Positions 43,555 to 58,802 of a DNA stretch of 64,000 nucleotides are shown one piece after another (within the stretch, counting starts at the first letter, position 1; every line of letters begins with the position of its first letter). Location: contig NZ_JARKMR010000001.1 of assembly GCF_029350975.1 (NCBI RefSeq), positions 1,302,001 through 1,366,000 of the forward strand, written 5' to 3'. Under the pieces are notes generated by a model, which saw only the letters and a list, made by a program, of their open reading frames with translations, made no database searches and was not told the DNA's origin. Source of the DNA: Maribacter zhoushanensis. Its GTDB lineage: Bacteria; Bacteroidota; Bacteroidia; Flavobacteriales; Flavobacteriaceae. The translations under genes and the position numbers were made by a program.

Positions 43555-44100
43555 ATGTTTCAAAGCAATGTCGTAGAGAAATGTAAAGCAAACGACCGGG
43601 CTGCCCAGTTGCAGTTGTACAGGAAGTATTGCGATGGTATGTACGTTGTTGCCATGCGATTTGTAAAAAATGCGGATGATGCTGAAGACGTCTTACAAGA
43701 ATCGTTCATTAAAGCATTTGAAAAGATTCATCAATTTAAAGGAGATGTCACTTTTGGAGCATGGTTAAAACGGATTGTAGTAAACAAGAGTATAGATTTT
43801 TTAAAATCTAAAAAAGACAAAGAGGTTTCTTTAGATGATAGTTATATGCAAGTGGTTGCAGAAGATGATAATTGGAATGTACCATTAACTATAAGTGTAG
43901 AGCAGGTAAGATGTGCCATTAACGAATTACAGGATAAGTATAAATACGTAGTACTAATGTTTTTGGTAGAAGGGTATGATCATCAAGAAATTGCAGAGGT
44001 ATTAGATATATCTGCCTCTGCGTGTAGAACCAGGTTGTCTAGAGGTAAGGGGCATTTAAAAGAATTATTAAAAGGGAAAAAATATGGAACAGGATCTTAG
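43555..44100 (+). CDS. ECF RNA polymerase sigma factor
   Basis: The 181-residue protein has region 2 (YCDGMYVVAMRFVKNADDAEDVLQESFIKAFEKI, about 24-57) and region 4 (LQDKYKYVVLMFLVEGYDHQEIAEVLDISASACRTRLSRGKGHLKE, about 125-170), the two-domain layout of extracytoplasmic-function sigma factors. The next gene overlaps it by 17 bp and looks like an anti-sigma factor, so they form a regulatory pair. The promoter it recognises is not evident from the sequence. Confidence 0.92.
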   Translation: MFQSNVVEKCKANDRAAQLQLYRKYCDGMYVVAMRFVKNADDAEDVLQESFIKAFEKIHQFKGDVTFGAWLKRIVVNKSIDFLKSKKDKEVSLDDSYMQVVAEDDNWNVPLTISVEQVRCAINELQDKYKYVVLMFLVEGYDHQEIAEVLDISASACRTRLSRGKGHLKELLKGKKYGTGS

Positions 44101-44665
44101 GGAAATGTTCAAAAAGGATAAGGAAAAGCAAAAACATACCATTAAAACCGGTCATGAAGAGCGCTTTTTGAAAAAACTTGAAGAATCAATGCCGGCAGAA
44201 CATAAACCTTTAAAAGGTTGGTTAAAGGTTGCGGCATCAGTAGCGGTAATTATAAGTTTGGGCTTAGGTTTTTTATTCTTTACTAATGACAGCAATACTA
44301 CAACAGTGGTTGATGCTACACCTGCAGAGGAACAGAAATCTGAATTTACTTTCGGTGATCTTTCACCAGATTTAAAAAAGGTGGAGAATTATTACGTTGC
44401 CAATATTAATATGGAATTGGCAAAACTAGAAGTATCACCAGATACCAAAGAGTTGATAGATAGTTTTATGGAGCAGCTCAATAATTTAAACTTAGAATAC
44501 AAGACGTTAAATACCGAGCTAAAAGAATTAGGTCCTAATGATCAAACCATTACAGCCCTGATAGAGAATTTACAATTACGATTACAATTATTACAGAAAT
44601 TAAAAAGAAAGTTAAACGAATTAAAATTATCAAAAAATGAACAGATCATTGACAACAGTATCTAA
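44084..44665 (+). CDS. Membrane-anchored putative anti-sigma factor
   Basis: The 193-residue protein has a charged cytoplasmic N-terminus (1-45), one membrane segment (about 46-63: LKVAASVAVIISLGLGFLFF) and an outer, mainly helical domain with coiled-coil character (about 100-190). The layout and its 17-bp overlap with the ECF sigma gene point to an anti-sigma factor, although no zinc-finger motif is present. It overlaps the next gene by 29 bp, so the three genes are translationally coupled. I could not assign it to a named anti-sigma family. Confidence 0.78.
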   Translation: MEQDLREMFKKDKEKQKHTIKTGHEERFLKKLEESMPAEHKPLKGWLKVAASVAVIISLGLGFLFFTNDSNTTTVVDATPAEEQKSEFTFGDLSPDLKKVENYYVANINMELAKLEVSPDTKELIDSFMEQLNNLNLEYKTLNTELKELGPNDQTITALIENLQLRLQLLQKLKRKLNELKLSKNEQIIDNSI

Positions 44666-46088
44666 GCAACTCATCATTGCATTAGGTCTATTAACTTCTA
44701 CGTCATTTTTGGCGCAAGAAGAAAGTAAAACATTTCAAGAACGATTTATTGTGGCAGAAGATGCCGTGGTAAACATCAATACCAGCTATGCCGATATTGA
44801 ATTTGAAACGTGGGATAAGGATGAGGTGGCCATTTCGGCCACCATCACCCTAGAAGGAGCTACTAAAGAAGAAGCGGAAAACTATTTTAAAAATAGCCCC
44901 ATTGAAATATTAGGGAATAGTAAAGAAATCAAGATTTCTTCAAAATCTAAGAATAACGACTTCTTTGCTAGTTTTGATTCCGATGAATTATTCGATCATG
45001 GCGGTATGCGTATAGAAGTGCCGGAAATTGCATCTTTTGTAGTTAGTATACCAGAAATAGCCCCGTTTCCTGAAATGCCACCATTGCCACAAACAGAAGC
45101 CTTTATTTTTGATTATGAGGAATATCAAAAAGATGGTGATAAATACATGAAGAAATGGCAAAAGAATTTTGAAAAGAGTTTTGATAAAAAACATCAAAAA
45201 CGATTAGAAGAATGGGCTGAGCGTATGGAGGAGTATGCAATTAAAGGAAAAAAAACAATTGAGAAGCTAAATGAAGAGCGAGCTGAATTAGTAGAGAAGA
45301 AAACCGAATTACTTGAAAAACGTCACGAAGAATTACAACAAAGACTTGAAGAACTTGAAGAAAAACGCACTCACGCAGAGAAGGGAAGAGAAGAACTACA
45401 ATCTTTTATTAGTACTTCTAGAGTGAATGGAGCAGATGTACCTAACGTATTTTACTTTTCAAATGAAGGGGAGCAAAAGAATTTTAAGATTAAAAAGACC
45501 ATTAAGATTAGCCTACCTAAGTCTACCAGAATAAAAATGGATGTACGACATGGGGAGGTTAAACTAGCTGAAAATACCAAAAACTTGAATGCGAACCTTT
45601 CGCATTCAAGCCTTTGGGCAGTTACCATAGACGGGGAAGAAACTAATGTTTCTGCATCGTACACTCCTGTAAGTGTTCAAAAATGGAACTACGGGCAATT
45701 GAGTACCTCATATTCAGAAGAAATTTCATTGTCAGAGGTAGTACAATTGCAATTGCAGGCAACTTCATCTGATGTAACCATAAACAAATTGTTTAAGAAT
45801 GCTTTTATAAAGAATGATTTTGGCGCAGTACACGTTCTTGAATTGGGGAACGATTTTAATGAGTTGGATATTAGCGTAAAAAATGGCGAGTTAAATGTTG
45901 CCGTACCTAAAGTAGCTACCAGTATTTATGTAAAAGGTAATTCATCTAACTTGAAGCTACCCGCAGGCTTACAAATGGTAGAAACAAAAAACGGTAATAC
46001 AACCATTCATAAAGGGCATCACTTGAAGGCTAATAGTAATCGTTCTATAGTAATAACATCAGATTATAGTGAAGTAGTGCTACAGTAG
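44637..46088 (+). CDS. Secreted DUF4097-like envelope protein with long charged coiled coil
   Basis: The 483-residue protein has a signal peptide (ending SFLAQ, about residue 26). Residues 30-110 (INTSYADIEFETWDKDEVAI) and 290-480 look like the repetitive beta-strand pattern of DUF4097-type adhesin-like domains (IKMDVRHGEVKLAENTKNLNANLSH). Between them, about 170-250, lies a highly charged coiled coil rich in Glu and Lys (ERAELVEKKTELLEKRHEEL). It is the third gene of the overlapping sigma/anti-sigma operon, so it is likely a surface component controlled by that pathway. Biochemical function is unknown. Confidence 0.8.
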   Translation: MNRSLTTVSKQLIIALGLLTSTSFLAQEESKTFQERFIVAEDAVVNINTSYADIEFETWDKDEVAISATITLEGATKEEAENYFKNSPIEILGNSKEIKISSKSKNNDFFASFDSDELFDHGGMRIEVPEIASFVVSIPEIAPFPEMPPLPQTEAFIFDYEEYQKDGDKYMKKWQKNFEKSFDKKHQKRLEEWAERMEEYAIKGKKTIEKLNEERAELVEKKTELLEKRHEELQQRLEELEEKRTHAEKGREELQSFISTSRVNGADVPNVFYFSNEGEQKNFKIKKTIKISLPKSTRIKMDVRHGEVKLAENTKNLNANLSHSSLWAVTIDGEETNVSASYTPVSVQKWNYGQLSTSYSEEISLSEVVQLQLQATSSDVTINKLFKNAFIKNDFGAVHVLELGNDFNELDISVKNGELNVAVPKVATSIYVKGNSSNLKLPAGLQMVETKNGNTTIHKGHHLKANSNRSIVITSDYSEVVLQ

Positions 46089-48536: not shown

Positions 48537-48806
48537 AGTAGTAAGTACGAAGTCTTAAGTTGGAAATATTGAAAATAGAAAATAGAAAATAGAGTATAGA
48601 GAATAGACTTGTTTGAAGTGCGAGGTACAAAGTATTAAGTACGAAGTAAAAAGTGGAATAAAGAAAATAACGTATGCACTAAAACAAATTATATAGCAAT
48701 TGCTAACGTAATATCTTAGTACTTAATACTAAAAAACGCGAAGCGTTAAAGTAAGCAACCAACAACCAACCTCTATTTTCTCTATTCTATCCTCTCTTTT
48801 TTTTAA
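48537..48806. repeat. Repeat-rich intergenic sequence with inverted AGTATTAAGTAC motif
   Basis: The gap after the M23 gene is built of short related words: AAGTACGAAGT and AAAATAGA on the left, their complements (TCTATTTTCTCTATTCTATCC) on the right. AGTATTAAGTAC (48631-48642) is exactly inverted as GTACTTAATACT (48719-48730). The whole stretch can fold back on itself imperfectly. A related copy lies at 49285-49350. Confidence 0.7.
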
Positions 48807-48811
48807 AAAAC

Positions 48812-48860
48812 TTGAACTTGTACTTGATTTTTAAGTTTGAACTTGCGCTTGATTTTTCGT
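48812..48860 (+). repeat. 25-bp tandem repeat (two copies)
   Basis: Two near-identical units starting TTGAACTTG (48812 and 48837) and ending in CTTGATTTTT follow each other. The second copy runs into the first direct-repeat regulatory motif at 48858. Confidence 0.75.
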
Positions 48861-48919
48861 TTCTCGGTTAACGACATCATTTATCGGTAAGGTGAATTTG
48901 GGGTATATGTCGTTTATCG
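48858..48919 (+). promoter_or_regulatory. LytTR-like direct repeats upstream of small secreted protein gene A
   Basis: Three copies of a 9-bp word lie at 48858 (CGTTTCTCG), 48878 (CATTTATCG) and 48911 (CGTTTATCG). The first two are 20 bp apart. The word fits YNTTYRTCR, with one deviation in the first copy, and also occurs before the two paralogous genes. AlgR, a LytTR-domain regulator, binds the similar CCGTTCGTC. Confidence 0.45.
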
Positions 48920-49038
48920 AAGAGATTTTACACTTAAACTGAACTTCTGTCAAGTAACGAGAATTAGGCGTTTTTCAGCGATCCATCACCTAGTGAAACA
49001 AGGTCTACGGCGTTCTATTATTGTAACAAACGCAAGTC

Positions 49039-49275
49039 ATGAAAACAATAATAGCAACAATCTTTATCATCTTTTTAAGCTTCACGGCACAAGCTCAAAA
49101 CAATACAGCAGATGTAAAAGTCGAAACTATAGAAATGGGTATTGTTACTGAAACTACATTTGAAGTAAAAGAAAGCACTACAACAGAAGTAGCTAGATTA
49201 TATAAATTTAAAAACTCAAGAATTAAAAGAGATTTGAATTTTTTAACGAAAGCTAACAAACCTAAAATGGCTTAG
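49039..49275 (+). CDS. Small secreted basic protein, paralog A
   Basis: The 78-residue protein has a signal peptide (MKTIIATIFIIFLSFTAQA, cleavage before Q20). The mature part is 59 residues, with a variable acidic-to-neutral stretch and a basic C-terminal block VARLYKFKNSRIKRDLNF ending KPKMA. The same block occurs in the genes at 49701 and 58373, always with the pattern (V/A)AR(L/F)(Y/F)K..N(A/S)R(I/V)...L.F.T and a final (L/M)A. I know no family for it. All three share direct repeats upstream. It might be a structural, signalling or antimicrobial peptide; that is open. Confidence 0.85.
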   Translation: MKTIIATIFIIFLSFTAQAQNNTADVKVETIEMGIVTETTFEVKESTTTEVARLYKFKNSRIKRDLNFLTKANKPKMA

Positions 49276-49284
49276 TCTTTTAGT

Positions 49285-49350
49285 AATAAGTAAAAAGTAC
49301 TAAGTACGAAGTATAAAGTTTATAGTGTATATCGGTATTTAGAAAATAGA
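49285..49350. repeat. Second copy of AAGTACGAAGT-type intergenic repeat
   Basis: AAGTACTAAGTACGAAGTA at about 49299 and AGAAAATAGACTT at about 49339 repeat words from the gap at 48.5-48.8 kb. A CT-rich segment with ATCCTCTCAATCCTC follows near 49432, matching the order of the first copy. Confidence 0.55.
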
Positions 49351-49607
49351 CTTCATAATTAATTTTAAGAGTGGATTTAGTTAAGCTATACTGATTTTGT
49401 GTTTAATACCAGACACCGGACAACCAAAATCTATCCTCTCAATCCTCACTTTCAATCTCACTCTTGTAGTCTTCTTATCTAGGATAATGAAAATTTTGTA
49501 AGAAAAAAACATATAAATACGATAAACTGCACAAATTTGCTGTCTAACAGAACAAAATTTTGTAGGAAAACGGACTACAAAAATTGGTAATACATCGAAT
49601 AGCATTC

Positions 49608-49637
49608 TTTTCATCGTAAAAATGATACCTTTTATCG
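49608..49637 (+). promoter_or_regulatory. LytTR-like direct repeats upstream of paralog B
   Basis: TTTTCATCG (49608-49616) and CTTTTATCG (49629-49637) are spaced exactly 21 bp and fit YNTTYRTCG. They end 63 bp before the ATG at 49701. Confidence 0.5.
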
Positions 49638-49700
49638 AATTCAAAATACGTTTACCAACGAGTAGGTGGTTATCTATACACCAAATTTACCTACTTTATT

Positions 49701-49940
49701 ATGCGTACAATTATTTTTTTATTCCTTGTTATCTGTTTGGGAACCAAGTCCCAAGCACAATCGAAGTCACCAGACGCGAAAGTACAGACCATTGTTATGC
49801 CCATGGCAGATGTAACAATTAAGTCTGATGTAAACACTCCCGGTTTCCAAACAGCTGCAAGGTTTTTCAAAATCAAAAATGCAAGGGTTAAACGTGCCTT
49901 ACTTTTTAAGACAAGGGTAAGAACTGTTTCTTTAGCCTAG
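49701..49940 (+). CDS. Small secreted basic protein, paralog B
   Basis: The 79-residue protein has a signal peptide (MRTIIFLFLVICLGTKSQA, cleavage before Q20) and a 60-residue mature part. The C-terminal block AARFFKIKNARVKRALLF and the final VSLA match paralogs at 49039 and 58373. The mature protein is strongly basic, with no cysteine. Its stop overlaps the end of the convergent arylesterase gene by 4 bp. The direct-repeat pair 63 bp upstream suggests control by the same regulator. Function unknown. Confidence 0.85.
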   Translation: MRTIIFLFLVICLGTKSQAQSKSPDAKVQTIVMPMADVTIKSDVNTPGFQTAARFFKIKNARVKRALLFKTRVRTVSLA

Positions 49941-50671
49941 TTTAATTCTTCTACAAGTTTTTCGGTTACCTCTGTTCCCCCTTGAGGTAATACGATAGTT
50001 TTTAAAACATCCCAAACATTTTCGGTAACTATCTTTTGACCTTCTGCAGTAGGGTGAATACCATCTTCCAAGTTCAAGTCAGGAATACCGGCAACACCTT
50101 CTAATAAAAACGGGATCAATTCTATATCATTACTTTTTGCTAATGCAGGATACATCATTTTAAACTGCGAAGCATAATCTGCACCCATATTTGGTGGTAT
50201 TTGCATACCTGCTAAAATAATTTTTGTTTCGGGGTTTTTATCTTTGACCATATCGATCATCGATTGCAAGTTATTCATCGATTCCGTTATAGGTATTCCT
50301 CGCAATCCGTCATTTGCACCTAATTCCAAAACAAAAATATCTACTGACTGATTTAAAACCCAGTCCAGACGATTTAACCCTCCAGAGGTAGTTTCTCCAC
50401 TTAATCCAGAATTGATTACTTTATAATCCAAGCCTAAAGAATCTAATCTTAATTGAATTCTATTAGGGAATCCTTCTTTGGTATCTAAACCATAGGCAGC
50501 AGTAAGACTGTTTCCGTAGAATAAAATAACTTTATCATCTGTTGAAATTGTTTCTTCAGTACTGCTTACATCCTCGGTTTGTGTTTCAGTTTGTTTTTTT
50601 TCTGGTGTTTCTCCACATCCTACCAACAACAACGCCAATAAAAAATAACGAAACTTTAATACTTTCAACAT
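49937..50671 (-). CDS. TesA-like arylesterase/lysophospholipase (SGNH, lipoprotein)
   Basis: The 244-residue protein has a lipoprotein signal (FLLALLLVGCGE, Cys19). SGNH blocks are ILFYGNSLTAAYGL (nucleophile Ser, about 50-63), NSGLSGETTSGG, LELGANDGLRG and DGIHPTAEGQ with Asp and His (about 208-217). It resembles E. coli TesA. The divergent neighbours are an ABC ATPase and a large permease like YbbA and YbbP; in E. coli tesA is also divergent from ybbA-ybbP, so the arrangement is conserved. The lipid or ester substrate is unknown. Confidence 0.9.
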   Translation of the reverse strand: MLKVLKFRYFLLALLLVGCGETPEKKQTETQTEDVSSTEETISTDDKVILFYGNSLTAAYGLDTKEGFPNRIQLRLDSLGLDYKVINSGLSGETTSGGLNRLDWVLNQSVDIFVLELGANDGLRGIPITESMNNLQSMIDMVKDKNPETKIILAGMQIPPNMGADYASQFKMMYPALAKSNDIELIPFLLEGVAGIPDLNLEDGIHPTAEGQKIVTENVWDVLKTIVLPQGGTEVTEKLVEELN

Positions 50672-50733
50672 AGTCTTAACTTATTAGATTCCAAATCATT
50701 TGTTTATTTTGTTGTCTTGTACTAAAATGATTT

Positions 50734-51423
50734 ATGACAAAGATATTAAACGTACGTAATCTAAAGAAAACGTATAACAGCGGATCTAAGAATTTGACAG
50801 TTATTGATGATATTTCTTTTTCTATTGAAGAAGGAGATACTTTTGCTATCGTTGGTCCGTCAGGAAGTGGAAAAACAACATTGTTAGGTCTTTGCGCTGG
50901 ATTAGATGAAATCAACAACGGAGTAATAGAACTTTGCGGTGAAGATTTAAGTAGCTTAAACGAAGACCAACGTGCTTTACTACGAAATGAAAAAGTAGGA
51001 TTTATTTTTCAAGACTTTCAACTACTGCCCACATTAACGGCCTTAGAAAATGTTAGTGTACCCTTAGAGTTACAGGGTGCAACCAATGCTTCTAAAGATG
51101 CAATGGAACTTTTAGACAAGGTAGGTTTAGGTAATCGCCATGATCATTATCCGTCTCAATTATCTGGTGGTGAACAACAGCGGGTAGCCTTGGCACGGGC
51201 ATTTTCAAATAAACCCTCTATTCTTTTTGCCGATGAGCCTACGGGTAATTTAGATGAAGAAACTGGAGAAAAAGTCATTAAACTTTTGTTTGATTTGAAT
51301 AAAGAAATGGGAACTACTTTGGTTATTGTTACCCATGATTTAGAATTGGCAAAGCTGAACAAACATGTATTGCGACTTAAAGGTGGTAAAATAGTAATTA
51401 ACGAAACCACGGCAATATCTTGA
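50734..51423 (+). CDS. ABC transporter ATP-binding protein (YbbA/LolD-like)
   Basis: The 229-residue protein has Walker A GPSGSGKTTLLGL (about 39-51), Q loop FQDFQLL, signature LSGGEQQRVALARA (about 139-152), Walker B ILFADEPTGNLD and the H loop VTHD. This is the MacB/LolD-type ATPase group, which works with FtsX-like permeases. The permease gene starts within its stop codon (TTGA overlap). The pair probably moves or extracts lipids or lipoproteins rather than small solutes, judging by family. Confidence 0.93.
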   Translation: MTKILNVRNLKKTYNSGSKNLTVIDDISFSIEEGDTFAIVGPSGSGKTTLLGLCAGLDEINNGVIELCGEDLSSLNEDQRALLRNEKVGFIFQDFQLLPTLTALENVSVPLELQGATNASKDAMELLDKVGLGNRHDHYPSQLSGGEQQRVALARAFSNKPSILFADEPTGNLDEETGEKVIKLLFDLNKEMGTTLVIVTHDLELAKLNKHVLRLKGGKIVINETTAIS

Positions 51424-53972
51424 GTACAACACAAAGAACATCAAAAGCATCATTTAATTGGTTATTGAAAATGGCTTGGCGTGATGGTAAGGCAAGTGGC
51501 AAGCGCTTGTTACTTTTCATGGCTTCTATTATTTTAGGTATAGCTGCAGTTGTTTCTATTCAATCTTTTAGCGATAATCTGAAAGACAATATTGGTCTCC
51601 AGTCAAAAGCACTTATGGGTGCAGATTTTTTAATTGATAGCAATCAACCTGCAAATGATAGGGTAGCGGCATTAATGGATTCTTTAGGAGGGTATAATGC
51701 AAGAGAAGTCAATTTTGCCTCAATGGCGGCTTTCCCTAAAAGTCTAACTACAAAATTAGTGCAGGTACGTGCCGTTGAAGGTGCTTTTCCTTTTTATGGA
51801 GCATTAGAAACTGAACCTGCCACTGCGGCACAGGAATACTTGGAAAAAGGCGGGGCATTAGTTGATGCTACGGCAATGCTTCAATACAATTTAAAACCTG
51901 GCGATAGTGTAAAACTTGGTAACATTACTTTCCCTATTGTTGGATCCTTGATTACCGCGCCTGGTAGCACAGGTATTGGTGCCACTGCAGCGCCACCTAT
52001 AATTGTGCCTTTTCGCTTTATGGAAGATAGCGGGCTCTTACAGCGTGGTAGTCGTCTAAAGTATAATTATTACTTCAACAATGATAAGGCAGATTTAGAA
52101 ACCCTAAGTAAAGATGTTGATCCGTTATTAGATGCTGAGAACGCTGATATGGATACCCATACCGATACTAGTGAACGCTTAGGTCGTAGATATGATAATG
52201 TAGGTCGTTTTTTAAATTTGGTAGCATTTATAGCGCTGCTCTTAGGGTGCGTTGGTATTGCCAGCTCTGTTCATATTTATATTAAAGAGAAACTTAAAGC
52301 GGTTGCAGTACTCAAATGTTTGGGTGCAACCAGAAAACAGACATTCTTAATTTACTTGATCCAGATTGCTGGCATGGGCTTGTTGGGCGGACTCATAGGT
52401 ACCATTATAGGATTGTTGTTACAACAGACGTTTCCGCTTATACTACAAGAGTTTTTACCATTTCAAGTAGAGATATCTACTTCATTTCAAGCCATATTCG
52501 TTGGGTTGTTACTAGGTGTTTGTATGTCTGTATTATTTGCTTTGTCTCCACTGATACATACATGGTTCGTATCTCCTTTACAGGTATTACGGGTACAAGA
52601 AGATACTGGTAAGAAAGCAAGACCTTATCAAATTTGGGTAATCTTTGCCATAGTGCTCTTTATACTTTTATTCGCTTTTTGGCTATTGGGTAGGTGGGCG
52701 TTCGCATTGAGTTTTGTAGGAGGTATATTGGTGACTTTTTCCATTTTGGCAGGAGTGTCTATTTTATTTATGCGATTGATAAAAAGATATTTCCCTAAAT
52801 CTTGGAGTTTTGCCGCTAGGCAGAGTCTGTTGAATTTATTCAGACCCAATAACCAGACTGTGGTATTAATTTTAGCCATTGGTATTGGTACATTTTTGAT
52901 TAGTACATTATACTTTACAAAAGACTTTCTCCTCGCCAAAACCTCGTTCGACGATAGTGCTGAGAGTCCGAATTTAATTTTATTTGATGTGCAGACAGAT
53001 CAGCGTGATGCCGTGGCTAATACCATAACACCCAAAGGGCTTCCTGTAATAGATAACATACCCATTGTTACCATGCGTTTGGAACGTATAAAGGATAGGA
53101 CTGTAAATGATATTCGATTAGATACTACCACCCGAGTAAACAAGTGGATTTTAAACCATGAGTTTAGAACAACGTATAGAGATTCTATGATTGGTTCAGA
53201 AAAACTCTTGGAAGGGGAGTGGATACCTACCGTAGACCCTAATGCAAAAGTAATTCCTATTTCTTTGTCAGATAATGTTGCCAATGACGCTTTGGTAACT
53301 TTAGGCGATACATTACTTTTTAATGTTCAAGGAAAATTGATGACTACCGTAGTAGGTAATATTCGTCAGGTAGATTGGGCACGCATGCAGCTTAATTTCT
53401 CTATTGTATTTCCAAAGGGCGTGTTAGAGAATGCACCTCAATTTCATGTGGTAACTACCAATGCCCCGGATAAAAAATCATCAGCTGATTTGCAGAGAGA
53501 ATTGGTGAAGAAATTCCCCAATGTATCCATCATAGATTTAAGACAGGTAGTAACCTTGGTCGAAGATATTCTAGATAAAATTTCATGGGTCATATCTTTC
53601 ATGGCGTTCTTTAGTATTCTAACAGGAATCATTGTTTTGATAGGCTCTGTCCGTAATAGTAAATATCAACGTATTCGCGAAAGTGTATTATTAAGAACAC
53701 TTGGTGCCCAGAGTAAACAGATATTGAAAATTAATGCTTTAGAATATTTATTTCTTGGTGTTTTGGGCAGCGGGGTAGGAGTGTTGCTTTCTTTGTTAAG
53801 TAGTTTTTTACTGGCTTATTTTATTTTTGATACTCCGTTTATACCATCTTGGGTTCCGTTTTTGGTGGTGTTGCCGGGTATAACATTATTAGTCTTAACG
53901 ATCGGATTAATGAACAGTAGGGGGGTGTTAAATAGTCCGCCATTACAGGTGTTACGTAAAGAAGGTAATTGA
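51420..53972 (+). CDS. FtsX-like ABC permease (YbbP-like)
   Basis: The 850-residue inner-membrane protein has an N-terminal membrane segment (about 28-47), a periplasmic domain (to about 265), three segments forming the first FtsX unit (about 270-390), further segments (about 405-450), a second large periplasmic domain and a second FtsX unit (about 720-845). This two-unit layout matches YbbP. The start codon is TTG at 51420, overlapping the ATPase stop. Together with the divergent TesA-like gene it forms the conserved tesA-ybbA-ybbP set. Confidence 0.9.
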   Translation: MSTTQRTSKASFNWLLKMAWRDGKASGKRLLLFMASIILGIAAVVSIQSFSDNLKDNIGLQSKALMGADFLIDSNQPANDRVAALMDSLGGYNAREVNFASMAAFPKSLTTKLVQVRAVEGAFPFYGALETEPATAAQEYLEKGGALVDATAMLQYNLKPGDSVKLGNITFPIVGSLITAPGSTGIGATAAPPIIVPFRFMEDSGLLQRGSRLKYNYYFNNDKADLETLSKDVDPLLDAENADMDTHTDTSERLGRRYDNVGRFLNLVAFIALLLGCVGIASSVHIYIKEKLKAVAVLKCLGATRKQTFLIYLIQIAGMGLLGGLIGTIIGLLLQQTFPLILQEFLPFQVEISTSFQAIFVGLLLGVCMSVLFALSPLIHTWFVSPLQVLRVQEDTGKKARPYQIWVIFAIVLFILLFAFWLLGRWAFALSFVGGILVTFSILAGVSILFMRLIKRYFPKSWSFAARQSLLNLFRPNNQTVVLILAIGIGTFLISTLYFTKDFLLAKTSFDDSAESPNLILFDVQTDQRDAVANTITPKGLPVIDNIPIVTMRLERIKDRTVNDIRLDTTTRVNKWILNHEFRTTYRDSMIGSEKLLEGEWIPTVDPNAKVIPISLSDNVANDALVTLGDTLLFNVQGKLMTTVVGNIRQVDWARMQLNFSIVFPKGVLENAPQFHVVTTNAPDKKSSADLQRELVKKFPNVSIIDLRQVVTLVEDILDKISWVISFMAFFSILTGIIVLIGSVRNSKYQRIRESVLLRTLGAQSKQILKINALEYLFLGVLGSGVGVLLSLLSSFLLAYFIFDTPFIPSWVPFLVVLPGITLLVLTIGLMNSRGVLNSPPLQVLRKEGN

Positions 53973-54027
53973 AAAAAATCACTGTAAATACTAATATTTA
54001 CATTTTAACTTTTCTACCTTTAAAAGC

Positions 54028-55689
54028 ATGGGAAAGCAACTATTCTATTTGTTCATTATTTCGTTGTTGGTATGTTCTTGTAAAACCAATAATGTAAAAG
54101 CCGATTTAATAATTACCAATGCCAATATCTGGACCGGTAATTCAGACTTACCAAAAGCTGAGGCAATGGCCATAAAAGCAGATACCATTTTGGCCATTGG
54201 CTCTATAAATGATATTCAAAAGTTTAAAGGCTCAATTACTGATATAAAAGATGTAAGGGGCAAATTCATTACACCAGGGTTTATTGATACTCATGTGCAT
54301 TTATTGATGGGGGGAAATAGCCTATTAAATGTAGCATTAAGAGATGTTGACAGTAAAGAAGAATTCATAAATAAAATAGCATCGTTCGCTAAAGAGATAG
54401 AACCCGGTCAATGGATTGTTGAGGGAAATTGGGACCATACCCTGTGGGGAGGTGAATTACCTAATAAAGATTGGATAGATGAATTTACGGGTAATAACCC
54501 TGTTGCTATTTATAGAATGGACGGTCATATGATTTTAGCTAATTCGGCAGCGTTAAAACTTGCAGGTATTGACGAAAATAGTCCAGAGGTAGAAAATGGT
54601 GAAATTGTAAAAAATGAAGATGGCACACCATCTGGTATTCTTAAGAGTGAAGCCATGTACTTAGTTCTAAATAAAATACCGGAGTTAACAAAAACAGAAA
54701 AGGAAAAGGCGATTAGTGCAGCACAAGATTATTTGATTTCACAAGGGGTGACGACTATTCATGATGTAGATAGTTTGGGCGGTTACGAGATTTTAGAAAA
54801 TATGAATTCCAATAAACTACTTACGGTAAGAGTATACACTGCCAACCCGTTGAGGTATTGGAAAACAATAGCTAAAGATGAAAAAAATTCCAAATGGCTG
54901 AAGAACGGTCTTATGAAAGGCTTTGTTGATGGCTCATTAGGTTCGCATACTGCAGCCTTTAAAGAACCATATTCAGATAAGCCCAATGATAAAGGTTTAT
55001 TCATTGTGGATGAGGATAGTTTAAATACTTGGATTATAAATGCAGATAAAAGGCAATTGCAGATTACTGTTCACGCAATAGGCGATTTAGCCAACAGCAC
55101 CATATTAGATCTCTTTGATAGTGTTGTGGTAAAAAACGGAAAACGAGATAGACGATTAAGAATTGAACATGCTCAACACTTGGCGATAGAGGATATTGAT
55201 AGATTTTCCAAACTTGATGTTATTACAAGTATGCAACCCTATCATGCCATTGATGATGGTAGATGGGCAGAAGAGTTAATTGGACATGAAAGGATAAATA
55301 CTACCTATGCGTTTAAATCGATTTTAGATGCCAACACAACTTTAGTATTTGGTAGTGATTGGCCTGTAGCACCTGCTTCCCCATTATATGGTATATATGC
55401 AGCGGTTACTAGAAGAACCTTAGATGGTAATAATCCTGATGGTTGGGTTCCTGAGCAGAAAATTAATGTGGAACAAGCATTAGCGGCATATACCAAAGAT
55501 GCTGCTTATAGCTCTTTTGATGAAAATGTAAAAGGCACTTTAGAAGCGGGTAAATTAGCAGATTTTGTTATTCTTAATGAAGATATTTTTCAAATTGACC
55601 CTACAACTATTAAAGATGTAAAAGTGCTGGAGACTTATGTAGGCGGTAAAAATATGTTTGTAAATAAGGTAGCTTCTACTAAGTATTAA
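54028..55689 (+). CDS. Amidohydrolase lipoprotein (YtcJ-like)
   Basis: The 553-residue protein has a lipoprotein signal (ISLLVCSCKTN, Cys18). It belongs to the amidohydrolase_3 group: GKFITPGFIDTHVHLLMGG with the HxH metal motif (about 79-91), GSLGSHTAAFKEPYSD, HAIGDLANSTILD (about 352), RIEHAQHL and FGSDWPVAPASPLYGIYAAVTR (about 446). These cover the metal ligands. Related enzymes hydrolyse N-acyl or ring amides; the substrate here is unknown. TACCTTTA near 54016 resembles but does not match the promoter consensus. Confidence 0.92.
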   Translation: MGKQLFYLFIISLLVCSCKTNNVKADLIITNANIWTGNSDLPKAEAMAIKADTILAIGSINDIQKFKGSITDIKDVRGKFITPGFIDTHVHLLMGGNSLLNVALRDVDSKEEFINKIASFAKEIEPGQWIVEGNWDHTLWGGELPNKDWIDEFTGNNPVAIYRMDGHMILANSAALKLAGIDENSPEVENGEIVKNEDGTPSGILKSEAMYLVLNKIPELTKTEKEKAISAAQDYLISQGVTTIHDVDSLGGYEILENMNSNKLLTVRVYTANPLRYWKTIAKDEKNSKWLKNGLMKGFVDGSLGSHTAAFKEPYSDKPNDKGLFIVDEDSLNTWIINADKRQLQITVHAIGDLANSTILDLFDSVVVKNGKRDRRLRIEHAQHLAIEDIDRFSKLDVITSMQPYHAIDDGRWAEELIGHERINTTYAFKSILDANTTLVFGSDWPVAPASPLYGIYAAVTRRTLDGNNPDGWVPEQKINVEQALAAYTKDAAYSSFDENVKGTLEAGKLADFVILNEDIFQIDPTTIKDVKVLETYVGGKNMFVNKVASTKY

Positions 55690-55709
55690 TAGGTATTTAA
55701 TATTAATAT

Positions 55710-56297
55710 TTATTGCTTGTGAGTAGGTTTGCCAATTTTGAGATAATGTATGTATTCTGTATTCGGATCAAGAAATCGAAACAGTTGTGTTCTTATTGTA
55801 GGTAGCTGAAAGTCATTTTTATCATAAACCTCTAATAAAAGCGATGCGTAATCTGAACGCGAAAAGCTTTGTTTTTTAGTAGTTATTTCAGATACTCGCT
55901 GATTGAATAGAATGCTTTTTGGTTGTGCTTTATTTCTATAATGAATCAATGGTACTGTTTTTACAATTTTAGCGAGTTCATAATTATAACGTTTAGCATT
56001 TATCTTTAAAGAATCTCCTAAAGCAAAATCGCTCACTACTTCATAAGTACTATCCTGGCCTATTTTGTTTAGAATTTTTACATAATTTTCGTAAGTGCCA
56101 TCAGCAATAACATTTTTAGTAATTAATTCTTCTTCAAAATTTTCTAATATGCTTAAAAGCGAAGCGTGATATGCAGGGTATTCTTTTTCAATGGCGTCAT
56201 TAATAGCTTCATCGTATGTCATCGTATTTGTTTGGGCGGCTAATACATTAAAAAATAAGAGATATATAAAAAGAAATAGGTACTTGTATAATTTCAT
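55710..56297 (-). CDS. Secreted protein of unknown function
   Basis: The 195-residue protein has a signal peptide (MKLYKYLFLFIYLLFFNVLA, cleavage before AQ). The mature part is alpha-helical in its first half (DEAINDAIEKEYPAYHASLLSILENFEEEL) and mixed after that. There are no cysteines and no recognisable domain. It lies convergent to the amidohydrolase gene and divergent from a small membrane protein gene. I do not recognise it, and the coding call rests on length, signal peptide and codon pattern. Confidence 0.75.
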   Translation of the reverse strand: MKLYKYLFLFIYLLFFNVLAAQTNTMTYDEAINDAIEKEYPAYHASLLSILENFEEELITKNVIADGTYENYVKILNKIGQDSTYEVVSDFALGDSLKINAKRYNYELAKIVKTVPLIHYRNKAQPKSILFNQRVSEITTKKQSFSRSDYASLLLEVYDKNDFQLPTIRTQLFRFLDPNTEYIHYLKIGKPTHKQ

Positions 56298-56394
56298 GAA
56301 GTAAGAATATACTGTTCTATTTGAAATATAGTACTTTATATTGTATTTGATTTTATAACTTTAAGGAATACGTAATTTTAAAAACCATCCAACT

Positions 56395-56613
56395 ATGGAA
56401 ACATCTTCAGATTTCTCATTTGTAATAGGTGCTTGGCAGTCTTTTTTAATCTTAGCGCTTTTAGTTTGGGTATATTGTATTGTTGATGTTTTAAGACATA
56501 AATTCAAAAACGATGGTAAAATCACATGGTTTTTAATTGTTTTATTTCTTCCAGTTTTGGGTTCTATTCTTTATTTGTCTTCAGGAAAAAATAGACGTAT
56601 TTTAAAAGTTTAA
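56395..56613 (+). CDS. PLDc_N-type two-helix membrane protein
   Basis: The 72-residue protein has two membrane segments (about 14-29 and 43-58) separated by a charged loop (DVLRHKFKNDGKITW). The pattern WVYCIVDVLR...ITWFLIVLFLPVLGSILYL is that of the phospholipase D nuclease N-terminal (PLDc_N) family. This family also occurs as stand-alone small proteins; no enzymatic part is present. It is the likely first gene before the helicase, 120 bp upstream, but the helicase has its own promoter box. Confidence 0.85.
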   Translation: METSSDFSFVIGAWQSFLILALLVWVYCIVDVLRHKFKNDGKITWFLIVLFLPVLGSILYLSSGKNRRILKV

Positions 56614-56708
56614 TCTGAGCTCTATTTATAATTCTACATTTTCATAGCTACTTTTATATTAATTACCGATAATTCTCTCACTATACGTGATTTGTCAACT
56701 AATCAGCA

Positions 56709-56716
56709 TAGCTTTG
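56709..56716 (+). promoter_or_regulatory. Bacteroidota -7 element of the helicase gene (TAGCTTTG)
   Basis: TAGCTTTG matches TAnnTTTG and lies 25 bases before ATG 56742. Confidence 0.5.
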
Positions 56717-56741
56717 CAGCTGAAATACAAAAGTGATTGTT

Positions 56742-58097
56742 ATGCCGTTGTTTACCGATTTAAAAATATCTAGAAACTTAGAAAAAGCACTTGATGATCT
56801 AGGTTTTGAAAATACTACTCCCATTCAAGAGAAAGCTTTTCCTATTGTAATGAGTGGTAGTGATGTTGTTGGTATAGCGCAAACAGGTACTGGTAAGACT
56901 TTTGCTTATTTGCTTCCTATTTTAAACACGTTGAAATTTTCTAAAGATATACACCCTAAGGTTATAATTCTTGTACCTACGCGTGAGTTGGTAGTACAGG
57001 TGGTAGAAGAGGCAGAGAAGCTGGCTAAATATTCTGGAACTAGAATTTTAGGTGTGTTTGGTGGTAAAAGTATGTTGCGCCAAAAAGAGGCTTTGGCATT
57101 GGGTACAGATGTATTAGTGGCAACACCTGCTAGACTGTATGATCTTATTCTAACGAAAGCGGTTCAATTAAAACAAGTGAAGAAGCTTGTTATCGATGAG
57201 GTAGATGTAATGTTAGATCTTGGTTTTAGATTTCAACTTGTAAATATTTTTGAACTCTTGCCACAGAAAAGGCAGAACATTATGTTTTCTGCCACGATGA
57301 CCGATGATATTGAATTATTTATTACCGACTTCTTTATAGGTGTTCAAAAAATTGCCATAGCCGTTAGTGGTACTCCTTTAGAGAACATTACGCAATACGG
57401 TTACGCTACTCCTAATTTTTATACAAAAGTGAACCTGTTGGTGAACTTATTACAGAATGTAGAAACCTATCATAAGGTTTTGGTGTTTGTTTCAAGTAAG
57501 CGCAGTGCAGATTTATTGTTCAAAGAATTGGCAGAGTTCTTTAGTGAAGAGATATGTATTATACATTCTAACAAAACGCAAAACTACAGATTACGCTCCA
57601 TTAATCAGTTTGACGAAGGTAAGAACCGAATTTTGGTAACTACAGATGTTATGGCACGTGGATTGGATCTGCAAGAGATATCTCATGTAATAAATTTTGA
57701 TACTCCAGCATATCCTGAAAATTACATGCACCGTATTGGTAGAACCGGTAGGGCAGAGAAAGAGGGTACTTCTATTTTGCTGTTTACAGAAAAAGAAGAA
57801 GAAGCAAAGAATGCCATAGAGGACCTAATGTCACACAAAGTAAATCAACTACCGTTACCTGAGGGAGTTGAAATTGCCACTCAACTTACTTTTGACGAGC
57901 AACCTAAGCATAGAGAGCGTGAAAATCCTTTAAATATAAACGAAGAGGAGCGTGGAGCAAGTTTTCATGAGAAATCTGATAAGAACAAGAAGGAGAATCA
58001 AGGTGGCTCGTACAAGCGTATCATTAAAAAGAAGTACAGTAAACCCAAGACCCGTGGAGATAAGAACTACGGTAAACGTGGTAGAAATAAAAAATAG
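56742..58097 (+). CDS. DEAD-box ATP-dependent RNA helicase
   Basis: The 451-residue protein has the Q motif (FENTTPIQEKAFP), motif I AQTGTGKT (about 48-55), Ia PTREL, Ib TPARL, motif II DEVD (in place of DEAD), motif III SAT, and in the second RecA domain motif V TDVMARGLDL and VI HRIGRTGR. The C-terminal 80 residues are highly basic and charged, a likely RNA-binding tail. Such helicases remodel RNA in ribosome assembly or decay. I prefer ATG 56742 to GTG 56733. Confidence 0.93.
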   Translation: MPLFTDLKISRNLEKALDDLGFENTTPIQEKAFPIVMSGSDVVGIAQTGTGKTFAYLLPILNTLKFSKDIHPKVIILVPTRELVVQVVEEAEKLAKYSGTRILGVFGGKSMLRQKEALALGTDVLVATPARLYDLILTKAVQLKQVKKLVIDEVDVMLDLGFRFQLVNIFELLPQKRQNIMFSATMTDDIELFITDFFIGVQKIAIAVSGTPLENITQYGYATPNFYTKVNLLVNLLQNVETYHKVLVFVSSKRSADLLFKELAEFFSEEICIIHSNKTQNYRLRSINQFDEGKNRILVTTDVMARGLDLQEISHVINFDTPAYPENYMHRIGRTGRAEKEGTSILLFTEKEEEAKNAIEDLMSHKVNQLPLPEGVEIATQLTFDEQPKHRERENPLNINEEERGASFHEKSDKNKKENQGGSYKRIIKKKYSKPKTRGDKNYGKRGRNKK

Positions 58098-58245
58098 GTT
58101 TCATTTATTTCAAATTAATTGATTCTTTATTCTACAAATAGAATGTTCTTTTATGCCCTAGTTTTAGGGGTGTTCTAAATTTTCTACATTTAAAAACATC
58201 GATTAAATACACGTCAAATCGGTATGATGTTTTTAGACTAAAAAC

Positions 58246-58275
58246 CATTCGTCGATACTTTTTGTCTATTCGTCA
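58246..58275 (+). promoter_or_regulatory. LytTR-like direct repeats upstream of paralog C
   Basis: CATTCGTCG (58246-58254) and TATTCGTCA (58267-58275) share ATTCGTC exactly and are 21 bp apart. The first, with its flanking C, reads CCATTCGTC, one base from the AlgR consensus. The pair ends 97 bp before the ATG at 58373. Confidence 0.55.
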
Positions 58276-58372
58276 CAGATTTTTACGCTAGCCGAAAATT
58301 ATAGCAGTTTAGCGAGGGTAAGAGCCATAATTCTCAATCTGAAACTACTTTTATATTGTTCAATATTACAAT

Positions 58373-58630
58373 ATGAAAGCAATATTCACCTTACTAATAG
58401 TCATTTTCGCCGGAGCATTAGCATTGGCACAAACTCCCCTAACAGATGATAAAACTAACACTACTGAAGTGGGTGTTGTTTTGGCTGATAGCTCTGACAA
58501 TACTGGCAACGAAAAAACGATTACAATTACTGATGAAACGTCAGTAGCACGTTTGTACAGATATGCAAATGCTAGAATTAACAAAGAATTAGCGTTCGCT
58601 ACCAAGAAGTCTTACGGTAAATTGGCATAA
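58373..58630 (+). CDS. Small secreted basic protein, paralog C
   Basis: The 85-residue protein has a signal peptide (MKAIFTLLIVIFAGALALA, cleavage before Q20) and a 66-residue mature part. A threonine- and aspartate-rich middle leads to the C-terminal block VARLYRYANARINKELAF, ending GKLA. This matches paralogs at 49039 and 49701, about 9 kb away. A direct-repeat pair lies upstream. A GTGC-type hairpin follows the stop, then a 39-residue membrane peptide gene. Function unknown. Confidence 0.85.
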   Translation: MKAIFTLLIVIFAGALALAQTPLTDDKTNTTEVGVVLADSSDNTGNEKTITITDETSVARLYRYANARINKELAFATKKSYGKLA

Positions 58631-58647
58631 TCTTTGCCCTATACAAC

Positions 58648-58667
58648 AAGGTGCAATTAAGCACCTT
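58648..58667 (+). terminator. Small hairpin after paralog C
   Basis: AAGGTGC (58648-58654) and GCACCTT (58661-58667) form a 7-bp stem with a 6-base loop, 18 bp after the stop of paralog C. The following bases are AT-rich without a clean T run, so it is a weak terminator or attenuator. Confidence 0.4.
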
Positions 58668-58682
58668 ATAAATATTAAAACT

Positions 58683-58802
58683 ATGATGTTACTTTCAATT
58701 TTAATACCAGCAGTTATCGTTATTGCAACTATTGCCTTTACTTCAGAAAATGAAAAAAAAGTACGTCCAATTAAAGTACCTGTAAACAAGCGTAAGTTTT
58801 AA
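58683..58802 (+). CDS. Predicted 39-residue membrane peptide
   Basis: The frame starts with two ATGs and encodes MMLLSILIPAVIVIATIAF, a single membrane span, followed by a short basic tail (EKKVRPIKVPVNKRKF). It lies 52 bp after paralog C on the same strand. Its stop overlaps the last codon of the convergent amidohydrolase gene by 3 bp. The clean hydrophobic-then-basic layout and its position support a real gene, but 39 residues is short and chance cannot be excluded. Confidence 0.5.
   Translation: MMLLSILIPAVIVIATIAFTSENEKKVRPIKVPVNKRKF

Follow-up and report, generated by a model that had tools for sequence, protein, structure and literature searches.

A family of small secreted basic proteins in Maribacter zhoushanensis and its predicted control by a tetratricopeptide-repeat kinase and a LytTR regulator

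In a stretch of 64,000 nucleotides from Maribacter zhoushanensis (contig NZ_JARKMR010000001.1, positions 1,302,001 to 1,366,000; called the window here), three genes encode small, secreted-looking basic proteins of a larger family. We propose, with moderate confidence, that this family is a main output of a dedicated two-component system, made of a HisKA_2 histidine kinase with tetratricopeptide repeats (TPR) and a LytTR-type response regulator, that the regulator acts through arrays of six boxes upstream of the genes, and that the proteins are surface-acting effectors. The family itself, the conservation of the arrays, the likeness and phase of their boxes, the co-occurrence of regulator and family and a box site at the regulator locus were all obtained by computation.

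The three genes lie on the + strand at 49039..49275 (copy 1, 78 residues), 49701..49940 (copy 2, 79 residues, MRTII subtype) and 58373..58630 (copy 3, 85 residues, MKAIF subtype). A preliminary description of the window had claimed three secreted-looking basic genes of 78-85 residues, and the open reading frames (ORFs) are present as claimed. Their kinship is supported by alignment and by the family profile, and copy 1 was also covered by the dN/dS analysis. Copies 2 and 3 are 37% and 41% identical to copy 1, and the alignment of the three has 16 invariant columns. Judged by eye, all three start with a signal-peptide-like segment with AQAQ or ALAQ at its end. A variable middle follows, and then a basic C-terminal block whose last residues are MA or LA.

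The preliminary description had counted three copies, which is right for the window and too few for the genome. When the own genome was searched with a profile of the three window proteins, eight clear copies came out, spread over contigs C10, C11 and C14 and all with E-values of at most 7.2e-15. A ninth, shorter match (G000:C10:534777-534950, locus L009; E 1.9e-7) covers only the C-terminal part of the family and is possibly a degenerate copy or a separate C-terminal module. All 35 same-genus relatives searched carry copies at E 1.4e-14 or better, and so does the single same-family relative; among 23 genomes from other families, no profile match was better than E 0.00875. Beyond Maribacter, matching records come from Arenibacter, Cellulophaga, Muriicola, Eudoraea and Croceitalea. 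The wider search across Flavobacteriaceae that had been suggested gave homologs in 26 of 149 sampled genomes, own included (41-member profile, E 1e-6 or better), and within this sample the family spans 25 genera. Iterated searching of the fetched loci yielded 155 matches, and 125 were left once duplicate coding sequences and sequences lacking a suitable methionine had been removed; by eye, one of the 125 (in L010) is unrelated, and another two are incomplete. Tandem rows of closely similar small-protein genes are seen at L061, L063, L306 and L307. Since several near-alike copies stand in a row there, frequent recent duplication is suggested.

The claim that no described family covers these genes held within the tests made. 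The best Pfam match of the window genes is DUF3836, at 14.6 bits against a cut-off of 25, and all NCBIfam matches are far below cut-off. When 41 diverse members were compared with Pfam, five families were matched by one member each (E 0.0009 to 0.006, curated cut-offs not applied), and at E 0.01 no Pfam family was common to more than one member. A sequence search of the PDB gave a best match of E 0.4, and a fold search of the PDB with the family model gave no match. As far as tested, the three window genes thus appear to belong to a family that fits no curated model. A defence system was considered and set aside, PADLOC having no match for the window genes.

Pooled dN/dS values are 0.19 for the signal segment, 0.25 for the middle and 0.07 for the last 28 residues; these are rough, because synonymous sites are close to saturated and the 432 pairs cannot be treated as independent. 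They were calculated from 35 copies, not only from Maribacter, of exactly 78 residues starting with MKT. The low ratios, lowest in the C-terminus, indicate translated proteins under purifying selection with a constrained C-terminus. The AlphaFold2 model has just two helices, one of the signal and one C-terminal (residues 44-66), with a mean predicted local distance difference test score (pLDDT) of 68 and a predicted template modelling score of 0.24. The last 27 residues carry a mean net charge of +8 (122 copies). In our proposal, the proteins would be exported by the Sec route, with a flexible middle between the signal peptide and the conserved basic helix at the C-terminus.

The upstream regions are strikingly similar among distinct family copies. 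Copies of the common types are preceded by an array of approximately 130 bp with six phased copies of the box tgCannTTyAtCGA, and the array ends approximately 50 bp before the gene. Two reversed boxes at about -174 and -154 are followed by four forward boxes at about -121, -101, -81 and -60 from the ATG. The spacing is 20-21 bp, except for a single 33-bp step between the reversed and the forward group. In the window, such arrays were identified on the + strand 5′ of copy 1 (48862..48988, C10:1350862-1350988; E 1.4e-25) and 5′ of copy 3 (58196..58318, C10:1360196-1360318; E 6e-19) by a model of the array, R1. R1 was trained on 39 sequences, of which 36 were kept by eye from 51 diverse upstream regions and three came from the own genome; the arrays of copies 1 and 3 are both among them. 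The consensus of the 39 aligned arrays is TATCGATTAAAnACACnTTnTnTCGnTAAGnTGTTTTTGGnnTnnnnnnCGTTTATCGAnnnTTTTTTACACTTTATCnnAnnTTTTGTCAnnTACCGAAAAATAnGGGnTTTTCAGCGATT. Between the array and the ATG of copy 1 lies a conserved, partly palindromic leader (48989..49038, + strand), which presumably contains the promoter. A pre-ATG RNA hairpin was considered for such regions; they are palindromic in many copies, yet RNAalifold paired nothing on 21 chosen sequences, which leaves the hairpin unsupported. An Rfam scan of 48700-58700 gave no match.

R1 has five strong matches in the own genome, every one just 5′ of a family gene, and the next match is at E 0.006; none of the five belongs to copy 2 or to an MKSIILL copy. 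Across 16 Maribacter genomes, 50 matches fall below 1e-8, of which 48 sit 49-56 bp 5′ of a listed member and the remaining two reach contig ends. All 14 fetched loci of other genera also contain arrays, the weakest best match being 6e-10. No 60-mer of these loci recurs in the named-contig loci L046-L085, and none of the 16 other-genus arrays compared exceeds 70% identity to a training array. When a matrix was built from the reversed boxes 1-2, its top four positions on the + strand were boxes 6, 3, 4 and 5; the six boxes therefore look like copies of one site.

Two papers describe LytTR sites as direct repeats of approximately 9 bp separated by 10-13 bp (period approximately 21), 5′ of the -35 region (PMC6193735, PMC11347149), for example 9-bp repeats 12 bp apart as in ACATCTTAT-12-ACCTCTTAT (PMC6193735). 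Array cores such as ACACTTTAT and the phase of 20-21 bp agree with these published sites; the repeat and the period are those of a LytTR-type promoter, and we infer the placement relative to the -35 region. Judged by their sequence, the array boxes would fit LytTR binding sites.

The own genome has 17 LytTR genes, and phased boxes were found at only one of the 17 loci (L097, score 23.3; the rest score 14.7 or less). The regulator encoded there (G000:C13:111606-112367) has a receiver domain (PF00072, E 7.2e-21) and a LytTR domain (PF04397, E 9.7e-18). The adjoining gene encodes a kinase of 656 residues with a signal sequence, TPRs and a HisKA_2 domain (E 1.9e-26), so that the locus has the receiver-LytTR regulator beside a histidine kinase that defines LytTR two-component systems. 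The boxes sit between the 3′ end of the regulator gene and the start of the kinase gene. All 24 other Maribacter genomes searched have this regulator, at 91-98% identity and with one of the matches partial. Three boxes scoring at least 21 are present at the regulator-kinase spot in 19 of 25 Maribacter loci, a count of triples made without a shuffle control; for box pairs, 18 of the 25 loci beat all 250 shuffled loci. The position matrix used here was derived from family arrays, and the regulator-kinase sites, like the boxes of copy 2, were absent from every training set when first found. The first 440 residues of the kinase are modelled as a TPR superhelix (pLDDT 85). Its fold matches in the PDB are generic and include peptide-binding proteins (LGN complexes, KLC1 with cargo peptide and Rap with pheromone), with query TM-scores up to approximately 0.46 among the matches listed. 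The TPR region is mildly acidic, with a net charge of -7 over 380 residues. A further membrane HisKA_2 kinase (L158:2045-3262, - strand) is kept near the family locus in several genera. We considered it as the partner of the family and set it aside: the whole neighbourhood is conserved, and no link beyond gene order was found.

The L097 regulator also tracks the family. In the same 149 Flavobacteriaceae genomes, it was found at E 1e-60 or better in 30, which are all 26 family-positive genomes and four of the 123 family-negative ones. Of the 25 other family-positive genomes, 24 have a regulator 86-95% identical to the own copy, and the last has one at 79%; the four family-negative carriers hold the four most diverged regulators (59-75%). 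Two of the other 16 LytTR regulators served as controls (E 1e-50). One was found in 68 genomes (20/26 family-positive, 48/123 family-negative) and the other in seven (4/26 and 3/123). The controls do not track the family; the L097 regulator does.

To extend the predicted regulon, a second model, R2, was built from sites found via R1 or the matrix. It comprises 15 regulator-kinase sites and five other non-family sites, and no family site is included. Across the window, R2 has a strong match only at 49606-49653, 5′ of copy 2 (49606..49653, + strand; E 2.9e-7 in 122 kb, runner-up E 0.036). Also 5′ of copy 2, at window 49487-49570, is an inverted repeat, TTTTGTAGGAAAA...CTACAAAAA, which also occurs before some other MRTII-type copies and is perhaps the site of a second regulator. 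In nine genomes R2 gave 108 matches at E 0.05. Twenty-five of the better ones were examined, together with five regulator-kinase sites, and none lies more than 30% inside a coding frame; among the 25 are three sites 5′ of family genes and one additional kinase site. Of the 12 R2 matches in the own genome, 11 are outside coding frames. Behind box sites we found a PorP/SprF gene of the type IX secretion system (T9SS; Pfam E 6.8e-72), which has look-alikes at four more of the fetched Maribacter sites, and the gene of a beta-lactamase-family protein. By eye, adhesin-like, lipoprotein-like and sugar acyltransferase genes and the gene of a T9SS-sorted-looking small protein also stand behind such sites; the adhesin-like proteins tested had no Pfam match. 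A peptide of 43-46 residues, MKNKKTFLASIALGVFLLAM..., is encoded near a gene that looks by eye like tsaE in seven Maribacter genomes (L200:1110-1238; also L170, L174, L202, L271, L278 and L283), with phased boxes upstream. Predicted co-regulation with T9SS, adhesin-like and lipoprotein-like genes favours a surface role. The processed peptides or surface-assembly subunits suggested in the preliminary description are both possible readings.

In the mechanism that we propose, the sensor would be the HisKA_2 kinase, which has a predicted periplasmic TPR superhelix, and the adjacent response regulator would become phosphorylated. The phosphorylated regulator would then bind the six phased boxes 5′ of the common-type copies, probably cooperatively, and activate the promoter just 3′ of the array. 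In Maribacter, the gene of its own kinase would be a further target. The regulator would switch on surface genes together with the secreted proteins, whose most likely place of action is the envelope or surface of cells growing attached, because boxes also precede the PorP/SprF, adhesin-like, lipoprotein-like, T9SS-sorted-looking and 43-46-residue peptide genes. We rank an effector role first for two reasons: the C-terminus is shared between genera, and many of the predicted co-regulated genes look surface-type.

Several observations weigh against this proposal. The regulator is unlinked to the family genes, since regulator and kinase are on C13 and the family genes on C10, C11 and C14. The co-occurrence runs along related genera, and shared descent may contribute in part. 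The boxes at L097 face away from the kinase and lie approximately 290 bp before its ATG. Outside Maribacter, phased boxes pass the shuffle maximum in just 3 of 28 regulator loci, and self-regulation is for this reason suggested for Maribacter only. The 15 upstream regions left out of R1 come from other subtypes and from some Cellulophaga copies, and their boxes are weaker or arranged differently; the MKSIILL subtype of the own genome has no strong array by R1. A matrix built from boxes 3-6 puts a non-box place overlapping box 3 first on the - strand, with boxes 2 and 1 next. Of 40 weak R1 matches fetched, 18 are wholly inside coding DNA, as chance would give, 4 are partly coding and 18 lie outside. 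The surface role is drawn from genes beside predicted sites, mostly judged by eye; TetR and unclear genes also stand behind such sites, and therefore not every target is a surface gene.

A different regulator may read the boxes, the LytTR pair being a bystander with a common motif. The number of LytTR genes in the genome and the mutual similarity of LytTR sites leave room for this, and direct repeats of the AraC type can show a period similar to that of LytTR boxes. We nevertheless consider it improbable, because boxes were found at a single LytTR locus and the two control regulators fail to follow the family. Alternatively, the secreted proteins or a C-terminal fragment of them could be the ligand of the periplasmic TPR domain, which would close an autoinducing or feedback loop and make the system a Gram-negative equivalent of peptide signalling. 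The predicted superhelix, which has peptide-binding TPRs among its many PDB matches, would suit this role; one box type stands at both the kinase gene and the secreted-protein genes, regulator and family co-occur, and the C-terminus is the most constrained part of the protein. However, unlike strain-specific pheromones, this C-terminus is kept across genera; eight or nine copies exist in the own genome, and the family genes are not beside the kinase, as a pheromone precursor would be beside its receptor gene. TPR domains also bind many things, the fold matches are generic, and the acidity of the region is mild. The Agr and Com quorum-sensing pathways work through LytTR regulators (PMC8895600), which would again be in keeping with a ligand. 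On balance, we regard a ligand role as possible but unlikely, and its fuller form, in which the LytTR partner amplifies the ligand genes along with adhesins, T9SS parts and other surface proteins, as slightly less likely still.

The proteins could instead be periplasmic stress or chaperone-like factors under an envelope-stress two-component system, perhaps with negative feedback on the kinase. They are small, apparently exported and under predicted two-component control, and the kinase gene has the same boxes. This is as doubtful as a different regulator, since no sequence or fold match was found, and the model shows one helix and disorder besides the signal rather than a folded domain. The least probable reading is that the cationic C-terminal helix belongs to an antimicrobial peptide or bacteriocin. 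The net charge of this segment and the several paralogues would suit this reading, and LytTR-family regulators activate bacteriocin genes in Streptococcus mutans (PMC6193735). The idea is weakened because the helix is not unusually amphipathic: its hydrophobic moment is barely over that of shuffles (mean z 0.21), with z>1 in 12% of the 122 copies. By eye, no immunity or export gene recurs alongside, and the recurrent neighbours look like conserved general genes.

Besides the family size and the upstream array of the common types, the preliminary description, sound on the family itself, had missed an ORF of 39 residues 3′ of copy 3 (58683..58802, + strand; sequence at 58683-58802, MMLLSILIPAVIVIATIAFTSENEKKVRPIKVPVNKRKF), with one hydrophobic stretch and a basic C-terminus. 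An ATG-started hydrophobic ORF lies within 150 bp 3′ of 15 of 15 listed copies, which were chosen by their C-terminal ending. The ORF is conserved at orthologous places and is for this reason perhaps co-transcribed with copy 3; it probably encodes a membrane microprotein. On the + strand at window 43555-46088, a row of three genes, judged by eye, encodes an ECF-type (extracytoplasmic function) sigma factor, a probable anti-sigma protein and an exported-looking protein; the row is kept 5′ of the family locus in 23-24 of the compared loci.

With the AgrA/ComE/YpdB type of LytTR systems, the proposed system shares Response_reg and LytTR domains and direct-repeat boxes at 20-21 bp near the promoter. 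It differs in having six boxes per array, two of them reversed, a HisKA_2 kinase with a predicted periplasmic TPR domain, and as target a secreted family for which we found no known relatives. The LytTR Regulatory Systems HdrRM and BrsRM (PMC6193735) likewise have boxes both beside their own genes and beside those of small secreted products; there a membrane inhibitor is used, whereas here a kinase and a receiver domain are present. RRNPP systems (Rap/Phr, NprR, PlcR) also combine a TPR receptor with small exported proteins. In our case, the TPR domain would be periplasmic and fused to a kinase, the genes are unlinked, and the C-terminus is conserved across genera. CpxP and Spy are small exported proteins as well, with two-component induction like that predicted here, but no sequence or fold relation of the family to them was found. 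LytTr domain counts are listed in a table of PMC7440613. A search of the open literature (LytTR in Flavobacteria and Maribacter, Bacteroidetes TPR kinases, the Zobellia secretome and LytTR pheromones) gave no account of the system in the partial texts it returned.

The work ties an unnamed secreted family to a specific sensor-regulator pair and to a readable DNA code. Should the sensor respond to the small proteins themselves as its ligand, this would be a type of peptide-signalling circuit for which the open literature searched, covered in part, gave no description in Bacteroidota. The predicted regulon offers a regulatory way in to adhesion and T9SS genes, and the system suggests that the family may have a role in surface growth or signalling.

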